Source: Candidatus Moraniibacteriota bacterium
GTDB taxonomy: Bacteria > Patescibacteriota > Minisyncoccia > Moranbacterales > UBA1568
Length of the DNA stretch: 38,703 nt
Reading direction: 5' to 3'
NCBI GenBank assembly: GCA_028688415.1
Contig: JAQTYF010000002.1
Coordinates: forward strand, 1-38,703
The notes beneath the pieces are model-generated. The model did not search any database and was not told the DNA's origin. It worked only from the letters and a program-made list of their open reading frames with translations. Below are positions 7,034 through 12,164 of the stretch, in pieces. The translations under genes and the position numbers were made by a program. How positions within the stretch are numbered: the first letter of the stretch is position 1; each line of letters starts with the position of its first letter.

Positions 7034-7783
7034 ATGGGACTTATCAGTCTTCTTATTACAGCGGGCATTATTATCCTAGGATCAGGATATTATTTGTTTT
7101 CTTTGCCTGGAAGTGAAGAAAAAGTATTGATAAACAATATTGCTCTTCCTGATATGACACAAGAAATTGCGAAGTATGAAGATGTGAAGAAGCAGGCAGA
7201 AGATGTGAAAAACCTCGTCGAACAGAAAGCGGTAGAAACGATGCAGTCTGCAGAGGAAGAAATCACTCCCACAAAACCGAAAGAGGAAGTGAAAAAAGAA
7301 ACAGTTCTAGCGGAAGAAAAAACAGACATCGTCAATCGACTGATGACAGCAGGATTTTCTGTTCCGAAAAATACGCGAAGTATTGATACAATCGTACTTC
7401 ATTCTTCCTATGACCTGAACGGCTCTGATCCGTATTCTGTCTCAGGTATCATGAAGGAATATGAGGACTATGGCGTGAGTGCGCATTATCTTATTGACCG
7501 AAAGGGTGTGATATATCGCCTCGTAGAGGACAAGAATATCGCCTATCATGCAGGAGTGAGCAAGATGCCGGACAATAGGAAAAACGTCAATGATTTCTCT
7601 ATCGGTATTGAAATAATAAACACAGAAAAAGGGTCTTTCACGAGCGCACAGTATGAAGCGGTGAATGATCTCATCGCATCGCTTAAGAAAAAATATCCTA
7701 TCAAATCTGTCGTCGGTCACAGTGATATCGCCCCAGAACGCAAAACCGATCCTTGGAATTTTGATTGGAAAAAGTTAGATTAG
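7034..7783 (+). CDS. Membrane-anchored N-acetylmuramoyl-L-alanine amidase (Amidase_2 family)
   Basis: Cleaves the bond between muramic acid and L-alanine in peptidoglycan. Residues 3-23 form a signal anchor. A Lys/Glu-rich stalk (about 45-95) leads to the Amidase_2 (PGRP-like) domain at about 115-247. By comparison with AmpD, the zinc ligands are H123 (IVLHSS), H229 (VVGHSD) and D239 (KTDPW), with catalytic E193 (GIEI) and K237; H172 lies in YHAG. The C-terminal 20 or so codons, which carry H229, K237 and D239, are repeated downstream at 8943-8972, 10054-10110 and 11097-11165 behind other genes. It would act outside the cytoplasmic membrane in cell-wall remodelling, or perhaps on a partner cell's wall (inference). 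Confidence 0.92.
   Translation: MGLISLLITAGIIILGSGYYLFSLPGSEEKVLINNIALPDMTQEIAKYEDVKKQAEDVKNLVEQKAVETMQSAEEEITPTKPKEEVKKETVLAEEKTDIVNRLMTAGFSVPKNTRSIDTIVLHSSYDLNGSDPYSVSGIMKEYEDYGVSAHYLIDRKGVIYRLVEDKNIAYHAGVSKMPDNRKNVNDFSIGIEIINTEKGSFTSAQYEAVNDLIASLKKKYPIKSVVGHSDIAPERKTDPWNFDWKKLD
7715..7783 (+). repeat. Amidase gene 3' tail, copy A (native position)
   Basis: The last 69 bp of the amidase gene, encoding GHSDIAPERKTDPWNFDWKK plus LD and a TAG stop. It is the reference for copies B-D. The first cassette gene starts 13 bp after the stop. Confidence 0.9.
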
Positions 7784-7796
7784 ATTTTTCAAATAT

Positions 7797-8936
7797 ATGC
7801 CAATAGGTGAACAATACAAACCCACCATCCTTCCAACAGAAGCAGATCAGACACAAGAAAAAACAAAAGATGTTGATGACGGTGGTCCTGAGTTTAGGCC
7901 GCGTATAGCAGAAAAACTTTTGCGATTTTTGAATATGTCGAGAAATATAGAGGCGTTTCAGGGAAAAAACGCTGAAGAGGTATTTGATAATGAAGAATCG
8001 CGCCGACAGTTTGTTCTCAATTTATCGCTTGAAGAATATATAGAATTACTTATTGGTATAAATGGTATACTTCGGAATAAAAATCGAGATGCATGGGGTC
8101 TAGATGGGAAAGAGGTGGCTATTGTTGGTTCTCATGGAGTTGTATGGGACTTCCCAGAATTCGAGGATAAGCCAATTTTGTTAGAACAATCATTGCAGGC
8201 AGCTAAAAAAATGATACAGGAAAATAGGAGTCTTACAGATGTTGCACTGTTGCTATCCTCGACTACCTCAGCGCTTCATCTTTTTAATGATGGTAATGGC
8301 CGGATGAGTAAGTTTTTGCTTACTCTTGTAAACAAGGGATATAGTAAAGATAAGCAAGAGATTTTTGCAGATGTGCTTTCGTCGAATGGTTTTTCCAATG
8401 CTGTAAACACGGGACTGTTGCAGCCGATGATTATTGCTCTTATGGGAAAGGAAATCGGTATGTATTCAGATGACGAAAACGATTTTGATTTTAGAGACGC
8501 AAAAGGAAACAGACCGCATGATGATATAGACAGTGGGAATTTAAATTTTAACGAAGGAGTGTCATCAGAACAGCAGATTTTTTTTAAGAAAAAACTTAAA
8601 GATAGTTTTGTGCATATGTCTCAGGCTATCTTTATTTATTTTAGAGAAAATAAATATAAGTATGTGGTAAATGATTCATTGTGGATAGATTTGAATTTGA
8701 TAACTCCGGATCTCACGAATGAGTCGATAGATGGGATTATCGCTCTATGGAAGCAACTAAAAAGGAGACATGTTGAGTTAATCATTGATTGTATCGCGAA
8801 TCCTAATAAAGAGGACTATCAAGTGGAGGTGAGTAGTCGTGGCGGAGTAACTAAAACCCAGCCTGTATTAGATATGTATAAAGATGATATAAAGAGCAAT
8901 ACTAAAGCAAGTATTTACAAAAAAGTATTTGAATAA
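7797..8936 (+). CDS. Cassette 1: Fic-domain protein with variant motif
   Basis: A 379-residue protein. Residues 161-172 read HLFNDGNGRMSK, matching the Fic motif HxFxxGNGRxxR except that the final Arg is Lys. Fic proteins usually transfer AMP (or another phosphate-containing group) from a nucleotide to a target hydroxyl, with the motif His as the base. No inhibitory (S/T)xxxE(G/N) motif is obvious. The C-terminal half (about 200-379) is not recognised. The N-terminus MPIGEQYKP resembles that of the next gene (MSINEQYKP). There is no signal peptide. The gene starts 13 bp after the amidase stop and ends 6 bp before tail copy B, with no promoter of its own seen. It could be an effector, a toxin, or a domesticated modifier. 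Confidence 0.75.
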   Translation: MPIGEQYKPTILPTEADQTQEKTKDVDDGGPEFRPRIAEKLLRFLNMSRNIEAFQGKNAEEVFDNEESRRQFVLNLSLEEYIELLIGINGILRNKNRDAWGLDGKEVAIVGSHGVVWDFPEFEDKPILLEQSLQAAKKMIQENRSLTDVALLLSSTTSALHLFNDGNGRMSKFLLTLVNKGYSKDKQEIFADVLSSNGFSNAVNTGLLQPMIIALMGKEIGMYSDDENDFDFRDAKGNRPHDDIDSGNLNFNEGVSSEQQIFFKKKLKDSFVHMSQAIFIYFRENKYKYVVNDSLWIDLNLITPDLTNESIDGIIALWKQLKRRHVELIIDCIANPNKEDYQVEVSSRGGVTKTQPVLDMYKDDIKSNTKASIYKKVFE

Positions 8937-8942
8937 TCTTTA

Positions 8943-8972
8943 TTGGAACTTTGATTGGAAAAAGTTAGATTA
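8943..8972 (+). repeat. Amidase gene 3' tail, copy B
   Basis: A 30-bp repeat of the end of the amidase gene. In the amidase frame it encodes WNFDWKKLD and a TAA stop, the same peptide as the native end. Similarity to the native locus continues past the stop into the start of the next gene (ATATGYCAATA, then GAACAATA). It lies 6 bp after the stop of cassette 1. Confidence 0.9.
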
Positions 8973-8981
8973 ATATATCAT

Positions 8982-10043
8982 ATGTCAATAAACGAACAAT
9001 ATAAGCCCGTTTCAGCAGAGAATGATCAGCAGAAGAAAGAACTCGAACGAAGTGTCAGTGCGGGCGATGAACAACTCCTTGATTTTTCAGTGCAAACTGA
9101 TCTGTTGCAGGCAACCACAAGAGACGAAGATGTCTTGGCAGCACAGGCAGTGTTGGATCATATCGAGCAGATTCCAGTAACAGAAAAAACTGAAGGACTT
9201 TCTTCTGAAGAAAGAGAGTTGATGGAAAAGAGATTTAGTCAATTGAAAGAAATTATTGCTACCGAAAAACTATCTCGGAAAACTGTGGAATTTCTTCTGA
9301 CGGCGGAGGTGTCTCTTGTTATTGCCGGAATGAAACCAGAGTCATATGTTCAGCCAAAAGTAGCACGTAATCTTTTATTGGCGAGTATTTTCAAATCGAA
9401 AGTTGGAATGATCCCTCAAGACCTGAAACAAAGTGAGAACGTTCTTCGTCAACTTGGCGTTGCCATGAGTCATCCGAATTATGGTGAGGTGGGAGAAGAA
9501 TTTAAAAAAGAAGAATCAATAGATCTTCTGTATGTTTATGATAAGGAAAAAGCTTTGAAGAGGATGGAGGAAAGCGCTCTTTTTACCACGGAAGAGTTGT
9601 CTATGGCGCGTGCTGATTTTGTTGGATTTCAGACAGCTGTTTTGAATCTTCAGACACAACCAATTGTCTCAGCCTATCGTTGTGGAGTTCTTTATGGCTA
9701 TCCACTAGATGATGTTAATCAGTATATCTCTACACAGAAAATAGGAGAGAAGCTCGAGGGGAGTACTGGAAAGAAATTTGTTCAATTATCAGCAGAGGCT
9801 AAAAGGAAACTCTTTGATGAATATATTCCACAGGCTACTAAAGAAGAACGTTTGGTTATAGAAAAAAATAGAGAAGGAAAAAAAGTGTTTACTATTCGAG
9901 GAAAAGGCGGAGAAAGAAGAAACTCGATTGGTTATTATGATCATGTTTCGTGGAATGGTGTTGGTGATTCTGTCGAGAGAGATATTTTGATGCGAAAGTA
10001 TCAAGAAGTTATTGATTGTCGAGACAAGTTCTTCCCTGTCTAA
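8982..10043 (+). CDS. Cassette 2: hypothetical protein, 353 aa
   Basis: Not recognised. It is a soluble, Lys/Glu-rich, mainly helical protein without a signal peptide, membrane helix or Fic motif. The ATG at 8982 is chosen because it aligns with the start of cassette 1 (MSINEQYKP versus MPIGEQYKP). The upstream in-frame TTG at 8955 would translate the amidase tail repeat in the wrong frame. Residues about 305-345 (KKVFTIRGKGGERRNSIGYY) look like a folded C-terminal unit. It ends 10 bp before tail copy C. Its position between two Fic-type genes suggests it may be a third effector or an associated regulator (inference only). Confidence 0.7.
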   Translation: MSINEQYKPVSAENDQQKKELERSVSAGDEQLLDFSVQTDLLQATTRDEDVLAAQAVLDHIEQIPVTEKTEGLSSEERELMEKRFSQLKEIIATEKLSRKTVEFLLTAEVSLVIAGMKPESYVQPKVARNLLLASIFKSKVGMIPQDLKQSENVLRQLGVAMSHPNYGEVGEEFKKEESIDLLYVYDKEKALKRMEESALFTTEELSMARADFVGFQTAVLNLQTQPIVSAYRCGVLYGYPLDDVNQYISTQKIGEKLEGSTGKKFVQLSAEAKRKLFDEYIPQATKEERLVIEKNREGKKVFTIRGKGGERRNSIGYYDHVSWNGVGDSVERDILMRKYQEVIDCRDKFFPV

Positions 10044-10053
10044 GAAGAATAAC

Positions 10054-10110
10054 ATCGCCCCAGAACGCAAGACCGATCCTTGGAATTTTGATTGGAAAAT
10101 GGTTTATTAG
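10054..10110 (+). repeat. Amidase gene 3' tail, copy C
   Basis: A 57-bp repeat encoding IAPERKTDPWNFDWKMVY and a TAG stop in the amidase frame. It matches the native tail over about 46 bp with one mismatch, then diverges in the last four codons. The operator-like repeat of cassette 3 begins at the very next base. Confidence 0.92.
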
Positions 10111-10152
10111 AACTTTATAAAGATACAAAGCATTGACATACTTTATAAAGTT
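10111..10152. promoter_or_regulatory. Twin operator-like inverted repeat at the cassette 3 promoter
   Basis: AACTTTATAAAG (10111-10122) and its exact complement CTTTATAAAGTT (10141-10152) flank the -35 box. Each arm also contains the 10-bp palindrome CTTTATAAAG. The second arm fills much of the -35/-10 spacer, so a bound protein would block RNA polymerase. The XRE-type HTH of the gene behind it is the natural candidate. Confidence 0.75.
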
Positions 10153-10161
10153 GTGTAGTAT
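10133..10161 (+). promoter_or_regulatory. Promoter of cassette 3
   Basis: TTGACA (10133-10138), 17-nt spacer, TAGTAT (10156-10161). It gives a start near 10168, at or next to the ATG, so the mRNA is probably leaderless or nearly so. Confidence 0.75.
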
Positions 10162-10167
10162 GGACAT

Positions 10168-11091
10168 ATGAATACGAAAGAGAAGTTACAAATTATCCAG
10201 AATATTTCTGGACTTACTCAAACAGCTATCGCCACAAAAATTGGTGTGTCTTTTGTTGCGTTCAATAATTGGTGGAACAAAAAATCTCAACCAAGGAGAA
10301 AACACGAAACAATCATTGATGACTTGTACAAAGAGTATACTGGTCAAAAAAATATCCCAGAAACTGTTTTGGTGGCTAAAAAGGAATTAATAATAAGAGA
10401 ATCAAAAAAATATGATTCTGTTTTGGGTATTATTCTCAAAAATTCTGATATTTATAATCAATTTCTTTTGTCGCTCACGTATAATTCCAACAAAATAGAA
10501 GGCTCGACGTTATCGGAAGATGAAACGGCAGACATCATGTTTGAAAACAGATCAATACCGAATAAAAGTCTTATAGAGCAACTTGAGGTAAAAAATCATC
10601 AAGCAGCTTTGCAATATCTTTTCCACTATTTGAAAAAAAGTAAAAGAATCGACGAGATGCTCATGCTTAAATTGCATAGCATGCTCATGAATGGAATACG
10701 GGATGACGCTGGTATGTATCGGAGACATGGTGTACGTATCGTTGGCTCGAATGTTCCGACAGCAAATTATATGAAGGTCCCAATTCTTATGAAGAACATC
10801 TCTCTCGCTATAGAGAAAAAACAGAAGGATGTTATTACGCACGTTTCCAATATTCACGGAAGATTTGAGCAAATTCATCCATTTTCTGATGGCAATGGTC
10901 GTCTCGGTAGGCTCGTCTTGGTGGCTATGTTGCTTCGGGAGAATATTGCCCCAGCAACAATACAACAGGAAGAAAAACAATTGTATTATGCAAGTTTACG
11001 GAGAGCACAGCTCAAAGAAGATTTTACTCAGCTCGAGGATTTTATTTGTGACGCGACGTTGTTTGGTTTTGGTATCTTGAAGAGGAAATAA
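10168..11091 (+). CDS. Cassette 3: Fic family protein with N-terminal XRE-type HTH
   Basis: A 307-residue protein. Residues about 5-57 form a helix-turn-helix of XRE type (LTQTAIATKIGVSFVAFNNW). The Fic core carries the inhibitory motif SNKIEG (S107-G112, the (S/T)xxxE(G/N) pattern of class II Fic proteins) and the complete active-site motif HPFSDGNGRLGR (237-248). It is therefore predicted to be a self-inhibited AMP transferase, and possibly a de-AMPylator as in related enzymes. The HTH and the palindromes around its promoter suggest autoregulation. It lies between tail copies C and D and has its own promoter. Targets are unknown. Confidence 0.92.
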   Translation: MNTKEKLQIIQNISGLTQTAIATKIGVSFVAFNNWWNKKSQPRRKHETIIDDLYKEYTGQKNIPETVLVAKKELIIRESKKYDSVLGIILKNSDIYNQFLLSLTYNSNKIEGSTLSEDETADIMFENRSIPNKSLIEQLEVKNHQAALQYLFHYLKKSKRIDEMLMLKLHSMLMNGIRDDAGMYRRHGVRIVGSNVPTANYMKVPILMKNISLAIEKKQKDVITHVSNIHGRFEQIHPFSDGNGRLGRLVLVAMLLRENIAPATIQQEEKQLYYASLRRAQLKEDFTQLEDFICDATLFGFGILKRK

Positions 11092-11096
11092 TCATT

Positions 11097-11165
11097 GGTC
11101 ACAGCGATATCGCCCCAGAACGCAAGACCGATCCTTGGAATTTCGATTGGAAGAAGATGAATTAA
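11097..11165 (+). repeat. Amidase gene 3' tail, copy D
   Basis: A 69-bp repeat encoding GHSDIAPERKTDPWNFDWKK plus MN and a TAA stop in the amidase frame. It includes equivalents of H229, K237 and D239. It begins within 6 bp of the cassette 3 stop and is the last copy, so it may be the original gene end displaced by the insertions. Confidence 0.92.
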
Positions 11166-11183: not shown

Positions 11184-11774
11184 ATGTACACGCGTATATT
11201 TTGGGAAAAGGTGATATTGATGTGCTTTTATGCTTCATTACCTGCTGTGATAATTGGATTTGTATTCGCGGCTGTACAGACAAAAGTTTTTGGACTGAGA
11301 AATTATGTCAGTATCGGCGGGTGGTCAATGTGGTTTTTAATAGGTATTGTGATAAGTTATAGTGCAATGCTGTGGGGGTATGTTTGGTATCTGAAGCACC
11401 ATATCGATGACTATCAAAAAGTGAAGGTTCCAGTGAAGCCTTTGAATAAATGGATTCAGTATGGTCGCCAACTTTCTTGGGGCTTCATGTTGTTTCTAGT
11501 TTTAGCTGGTTTCATTTTGCCCGTTATGTCTGTGTATTTACATAAAAATGCGATGCACCTTCCGTTTTGGTATGAATATCTCCTGGGTATGCTCTGGATA
11601 CCTATCATTATTTGTCCAGTAGTCATTATAGCTTTGTGCTTTTATGGTTTGCGAACTCTGGATCGAGAAAAGGAATCTGGTTTTTGGGATGGAATCATCA
11701 GAATCACGCTAGTTTCATTTTTTGAAATAATCATATGGCTGCCAGTTGTACTAGCCTATTTTCGGATGAAGTGA
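11184..11774 (+). CDS. Integral membrane protein, 196 aa
   Basis: Four hydrophobic segments (residues about 10-30, 45-68, 97-115, 130-155) and a probable fifth (about 170-192) make it a polytopic membrane protein. No family is recognised. The start follows tail copy D by 18 bp. Low GC and many rare-looking codons suggest it may belong to the accessory region rather than to the conserved genes that follow. Confidence 0.7.
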   Translation: MYTRIFWEKVILMCFYASLPAVIIGFVFAAVQTKVFGLRNYVSIGGWSMWFLIGIVISYSAMLWGYVWYLKHHIDDYQKVKVPVKPLNKWIQYGRQLSWGFMLFLVLAGFILPVMSVYLHKNAMHLPFWYEYLLGMLWIPIIICPVVIIALCFYGLRTLDREKESGFWDGIIRITLVSFFEIIIWLPVVLAYFRMK

Positions 11775-11852
11775 CTGAATTGAAAAAATTTCGAAATTGT
11801 AGTATTGAAAATTGTTTAGAAATTAAAAATTGAGAATTGAAAATTTATCCAT

Positions 11853-12164
11853 ATGGCCTATACATTCAATTTGAAAATTGAAAAAGAAAAGAGCGAGCTT
11901 TCTTTGTCGAAGGATGGTTTGGTGTTGGGGAAAAAAGAATGGGAAGAGGGGAGAGATATGGGACGGAGACTCTTTCAGGGAATCGCTGATTTGCTCGCAG
12001 AAAATAATCTCAGGGCGGACGAAGTGACTGATTTCGTTATTGATTCAGAAATTCCAGACAATTATACATCGATGCGCATTGCGGAAACAGTAAAAAGAGT
12101 GTATACTTTTGGTGTGACCTTTTCTCATCCTGTGAAGGATTCTGAAGAGGGAAATCAAAAATGA
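11853..12164 (+). CDS. Short TsaB-like protein, 103 aa
   Basis: Residues about 35-88 follow the layout of TsaB/YeaZ: a helix ending in LLAENNL, an acidic DEVTDFVIDSEI strand, and IPDNYTSMRIAETVKRVYTFG, which matches the TsaB segment GPGSFTGLRIG. In most bacteria TsaB is about 200-230 residues and helps TsaD make t6A in tRNA. Here only the first actin-like lobe is present and the glycines of the GPGSFTG-type loop are lost. It could be a reduced TsaB or a pseudoenzyme remnant. An AT-rich spacer (11775-11850) precedes it. Confidence 0.5.
   Translation: MAYTFNLKIEKEKSELSLSKDGLVLGKKEWEEGRDMGRRLFQGIADLLAENNLRADEVTDFVIDSEIPDNYTSMRIAETVKRVYTFGVTFSHPVKDSEEGNQK

Follow-up and report, generated by a model that had tools for sequence, protein, structure and literature searches.

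Behind the gene for an N-acetylmuramoyl-L-alanine amidase in a Candidatus Moraniibacteriota genome stand three displaced copies of that gene's 3' end, designated B, C, and D, each following a different open reading frame. They were found in a window of 38,703 nucleotides (the whole stretch of DNA analyzed, contig C2 of the 1.02-Mb genome G000, which is 99.65% complete). All three lie on the same strand as the amidase, in the amidase frame, and each is closed by a stop codon. The question that this locus raises is why detached gene ends should look so intact. A first-pass annotation of the sequence argued that noncoding remnants ought to drift out of frame, and that retention of codons and stops suggests either a recent origin or selection for use as replacement ends. 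The features discussed below are collected in Table 1.

Table 1. Features of the amidase locus (window positions) and similar repeats elsewhere in the genome (positions on contig C1)
Feature	Position	Strand	Evidence and remarks
Host gene of the insertions, Amidase_2/AmpD-like N-acetylmuramoyl-L-alanine amidase	7034..7783	+	PF01510, E 1.7e-30; AmpD structures by phmmer; ortholog upstream of rpoB in the genus
Copy A, functional amidase 3' end, GHSDIAPERKTDPWNFDWKKLD-stop	7715..7783	+
Cargo 1, Fic-motif protein (HLFNDGNGRMSKF), 379 aa	7797..8936	+	Fic PF02661, E 0.0032, below cut-off
Displaced end B, WNFDWKKLD-stop	8944..8973	+	7 nt past cargo 1 stop; 29/30 nt identical to A
Cargo 2, orphan protein, 353 aa, N-terminus in common with cargo 1	8982..10043	+	weak DUF3793
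Displaced end C, IAPERKTDPWNFDWKMVY-stop	10054..10110	+	starts 10 nt past cargo 2 stop; 45/46 nt identical to A; 1 synonymous change
Promoter-like stretch ahead of cargo 3, two ACTTTATAAAG repeats	10112..10167	+	direct repeat; promoter call by eye
Cargo 3, HTH-Fic protein, PADLOC PDC-S04/SoFic-like	10168..11091	+	PF02661, E 7e-17; PDC-S04, E 1e-42
Displaced end D, GHSDIAPERKTDPWNFDWKKMN-stop	11097..11165	+	5 nt past cargo 3 stop; 93% over 60 nt to A
Membrane protein, 196 aa, no tail behind	11184..11774	+	not observed between amidase and rpoB in relatives
Histidine kinase gene with scar behind it	C1:157414-159138		tail SFIEAHGGKIWAESDGPDKGSRFIIELPIKNTHIQIGTSDQLAEANGREVEKEK-stop 5.5 kb downstream; 5.5-kb insert, 129-nt repeat
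rnhB gene with scar behind it	C1:467424-468140		tail FPENVNKRFANVLKPKKR-stop 2 kb downstream; 2-kb insert
Fourth gene, 51-bp repeat at its end, 100% identical	C1:151705-153132; copies at C1:153109/155128		DNA comparison
67-bp repeat of stop-plus-terminator	C1:212665		DNA comparison

Displaced ends of the amidase gene

The similarity of the tails to the amidase end is well above chance, and the reported retention of frame and stop holds for all three. Local alignment scores against the amidase end are 131 for D, 95 for C, and 60 for B; none of 300 Markov resamplings of the region scored above 43. A DNA search of the whole genome with the amidase end returned only these downstream places and one 14-nt chance match; that search did not list copy B, which was detected in other comparisons. 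Each tail is out of frame with the ORF preceding it and starts 5-10 nt beyond the stop codon of that ORF. We take K237, D239, and H229 of the amidase to be catalytic and zinc residues, as in AmpD. These positions align with the AmpD block GHxxIAPERKTDP (phmmer match to 1j3g, E 4.8e-18), and the alignment confirms the first-pass assignment of equivalents of the Lys and Asp to C and of all three residues to D; B has none of them.

Cargo 1 and cargo 2 share their first residues (MPIGEQYKP and MSINEQYKP) and are unrelated over the remainder, and the similarity of B continues beyond its stop into the start of the gene that follows. Because the two N-termini are alike and B is nearly identical to A, the amidase end with its leader looks like a single allelic slot that would hold different cargo. 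Searches found no close relatives of cargo 1, and no relative of cargo 2 among 286 genomes of the class. Predicted structures of both proteins are of too low confidence for use (pLDDT of 36 for the single-sequence model of cargo 2). The ACTTTATAAAG repeats ahead of the HTH-Fic gene, which contain the self-complementary CTTTATAAAG, are possible operators and might serve autoregulation. The membrane protein gene beyond tail D is possibly an older insert. A dispersed AT-rich intergenic repeat (AATTTTCAATTTTCAATT...), found at C1:928751-930872 between atp genes, occurs in similar form at window positions 11775-11850, before a small gene at 11853.

Similar scars at other genes

The genome was read as stretches and compared with itself, and the last 35 residues of 924 ORFs were tested against the 8 kb downstream. 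Intergenic matches at a distance of more than 500 bp comprised the three amidase tails, one histidine kinase tail, one rnhB tail, and one match in a dispersed repeat. At the left edge of every displaced tail, homology stops abruptly in a sharp non-homologous joint. The kinase and rnhB scars have no sequence in common with the amidase tail. The working kinase end, SDEPTSVEKE-stop, resembles the SDQPTTAERV-stop and SDQPSPSEKT-stop of relatives, and the left copy is therefore read as an authentic gene end; it is the displaced kinase C-terminus that is unusual among relatives. Displaced gene starts comparable to these ends were not seen in this genome, and candidate matches near 712837 were rejected as starts of paralogous genes. 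Repeats at C1 928751/930790, between atp genes, were likewise rejected as a scar, being dispersed intergenic repeats.

Codon differences between working and displaced ends

The comparison of working with displaced ends was restricted to matched codons and left out the junction codon as well as the free C-terminal residues, a choice of blocks that somewhat favors conserved codons. Synonymous and nonsynonymous differences number 8 and 0 for rnhB, 7 and 1 for the kinase, 4 and 0 for amidase tail D (20 codons), and 7 and 1 for an amidase tail in a congener, G012. For the four loci jointly, 26 of 28 differences are synonymous; the two nonsynonymous differences compare with 22.3 expected under neutrality, and none of 20,000 simulations, run under one mutation model with an assumed transition weight of 4, gave so few. 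The kinase tail of another congener, G009, is looser, with 8 synonymous and about 7 nonsynonymous changes (11.6 nonsynonymous expected). Changes typical of noncoding sequence are almost missing from the displaced copies in G000, and the differences therefore appear to have arisen while both copies ended working genes. What the scars bring together, judged from these codon comparisons, is two diverged functional alleles. Amidase tails B and C and the 51-bp repeat resemble the working end so closely that they give no indication of two alleles.

Related genomes and the empty site

The amidase lies upstream of rpoB in members of the genus with a readable locus, several of which have only a small protein between the two genes and others different inserts. 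A whole-protein search of 131 genomes of the order, from which very short tails such as B would escape, found amidase tails downstream in no genome other than G000 and G012; a tail is lacking in most relatives. In G012, an AbiEii pair (PF08843, E 9.9e-12) stands behind the amidase, and the displaced tail beyond it, PPGRKTDPWNFDWKRLK, no longer has a stop. In G009, the kinase is followed by a peptidase-like gene and then by a displaced kinase end. The AbiE cargo of other relatives stands behind other gene ends, without detectable tails. An 88-91 aa protein together with an AbiEii pair recurs behind different core-gene ends, namely the amidase (G012), the kinase (G001), and a gene ending IKGYIY (G023 and G009; also upstream in G025 and G005).

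Comparison at rnhB shows that an insertion occurred. In G003, G004, and G008, a short variable spacer separates rnhB from the sequence found in G000 behind the displaced rnhB tail, with 2 kb lying between in G000; the displaced tail is thus joined to the ancestral downstream sequence. Long direct repeats flank the inserts, and the empty rnhB site of these three genomes has a single copy. Compared with relatives, the displaced rnhB copy is closer at 29 site comparisons and the working copy at 15, so that the identity of the resident copy is weakly resolved. Synonymous sites of the amidase tail vary freely between relatives.

A contig scan found no donor genome or strain of the same species, the closest named relatives being Moranbacteria (Moraniibacteriota), and viral contigs searched against the amidase alignment gave only general amidases (27-49% identity) and no phage carrying the tail. 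A scan for displaced ends in G011 (775 kb, 20 kb masked) gave one convincing case, which is the template of a diversity-generating retroelement (DGR). This element occupies contig C2:6536-10300 of G011, with a 517-aa gene whose 3' end is variable, a template repeat at 8811-9001 with mostly adenine-specific differences, and a reverse-transcriptase-like ORF at 9044-10300.

Origin of the displaced ends

We consider it roughly two-thirds probable that three insertions, stacked one on another, left the tails as scars, each insertion bringing in an allele end with cargo by a homologous joint on the left and an illegitimate joint on the right. DNA arriving from a related strain would bring the terminal portion of that strain's amidase allele with a cargo gene behind it. 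Homologous recombination with the resident allele on the left would let the incoming end complete the resident enzyme; on the right, the distal end of the cargo would be joined illegitimately just inside the resident amidase, leaving the old end of the resident gene downstream as a displaced tail. The fragment might recircularize and enter by a single crossover, or might enter by homology-facilitated illegitimate recombination (HFIR). Nesting suggests that D is the oldest insertion, followed by C and then B. If the right joint fell past the stop, no tail would remain, as with the AbiE insert behind the G001 kinase. Since the kinase end fits those of relatives and the copies have diverged synonymously, the left copy would be the donor allele with its own authentic end, as read from the recipient and its relatives. 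The survival of short tails is probably explained by excision of longer direct repeats.

DNA uptake, a RecA crossover, and end joining are the steps we infer. The genome has a ComEC gene, and natural competence has been shown in Saccharibacteria (PMC10633639). Three insertions at a single gene seem more than chance alone suggests, which would count against the proposed mechanism, as would the weak resolution of the resident rnhB copy and the unusual C-terminus of the displaced kinase end. The genome is probably a metagenome assembly, in which mixing of strains is possible, though the unique left junctions argue against an artifact.

A process that duplicates 30-150 bp of target on gene insertion, as in Helicobacter pylori, would also produce a direct repeat, an insert of one or a few genes, and a second repeat. 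Consistent with such a process, the two 51-bp copies on C1 are identical, and the cargo includes defense-like genes, much as H. pylori cargo often consists of restriction-modification genes (PMC1643837). However, duplicated copies should begin identical, with the displaced one then decaying freely, which is hard to reconcile with the excess of synonymous differences at the four loci, and the left copy at the kinase has an authentic gene end rather than arbitrary insert sequence; target duplication therefore appears unlikely. It is very unlikely that site-specific integration, either integron-like or by an integrase acting in trans, used the amidase end as an attachment site. Units of one gene stacked with a repeat after each do recall a cassette array, but the repeats vary in length (30, 46, and 60 nt), the tail is free to vary at synonymous sites in relatives, the amidase, kinase, and rnhB scars have no common site, and the single tyrosine recombinase of the genome is on another contig. 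A 3'-end copy downstream of a gene has the look of template and variable repeats, and a relative has a genuine DGR; G000 itself, however, has no reverse transcriptase and its tails no adenine-specific changes, and the chance of such an element here is negligible.

Selection that maintains the displaced ends as spare replacement ends, with reversible loss of the cassette, is the reading favored by the kept frame, stop, and catalytic codons of C and D, and tail-to-tail recombination would indeed rebuild an intact gene. The first-pass suggestion that recombination at any tail would leave an active amidase is sound as logic, with the cargo dropped in the process, but it is an automatic by-product of duplicating a gene end. 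Equal scars occur at unrelated genes (kinase and rnhB), the tail in G012 no longer ends in a stop, the G009 kinase tail carries about 7 nonsynonymous changes, most relatives lack tails, and separate alleles account for the synonymous divergence without selection after displacement. Such selection is neither needed nor supported, and we regard it as very improbable. Amidases ending in MVY or MN, the alleles that the first-pass annotation proposed to look for, were not found among genomes of the family. Its alternative of a recent origin fares better and is supported, with the qualification that the differences are synonymous from the time when the copies were ends of separate functional alleles, not through preservation after displacement. 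On balance, the well-kept ends look like recent scars and not like spare parts held in reserve, and the retention of frame, stop, and catalytic codons would mean that the tails are young remains of once-functional ends.

Insertion of an allele end with cargo suggests a route by which very small genomes gain single genes beside core genes without breaking these, including defense-like Fic and AbiE genes. The scar is readable, and could serve to locate recent gene gain in Patescibacteria genomes; the test of synonymous differences tells allele-transfer scars apart from both genuine target duplications and conserved spare parts. A broader proposal, which we hold to be quite unlikely, is that conserved gene 3' ends are reusable landing and excision sites in these Patescibacteria, such that units of gene end and cargo would travel between strains, stack behind a housekeeping gene, and be lost precisely, as an integrase-free cassette system.

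Comparison with known systems

We found no description of this scar in Patescibacteria in the literature. The known kinds of event to which it would belong are insertion with flanking duplication and single-crossover integration of recircularized DNA. HFIR, known from S. pneumoniae, Acinetobacter baylyi, and Pseudomonas stutzeri, is similar in having one homologous and one illegitimate joint and small inserts of about 1 kb; it usually deletes resident DNA, whereas here resident DNA is retained and a short piece is present twice. In E. coli given cut DNA, 56 of 60 integrants had end duplications, 109-950 bp long in the 14 sequenced, which were ascribed to recircularization followed by a single crossover (PMC3240628). 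There, as here, the homologous end is doubled around the insert, and trimming of that end shows as a sharp edge; those were laboratory events, while the repeats described here are natural, span 30-150 bp, and involve gene 3' ends of diverged alleles. The long target duplications of H. pylori (Nobusato et al. 2000, as cited in PMC1643837) are likewise gene insertions with long direct target repeats, often of defense genes according to the citing account, but the repeat copies here belong to diverged alleles and have authentic gene ends. In integron cassette arrays, too, single-gene units are stacked with a repeat behind each; in contrast, the present locus has no nearby integrase and shares no common site with the other scars, and it repeats the end of the coding sequence of a housekeeping gene.
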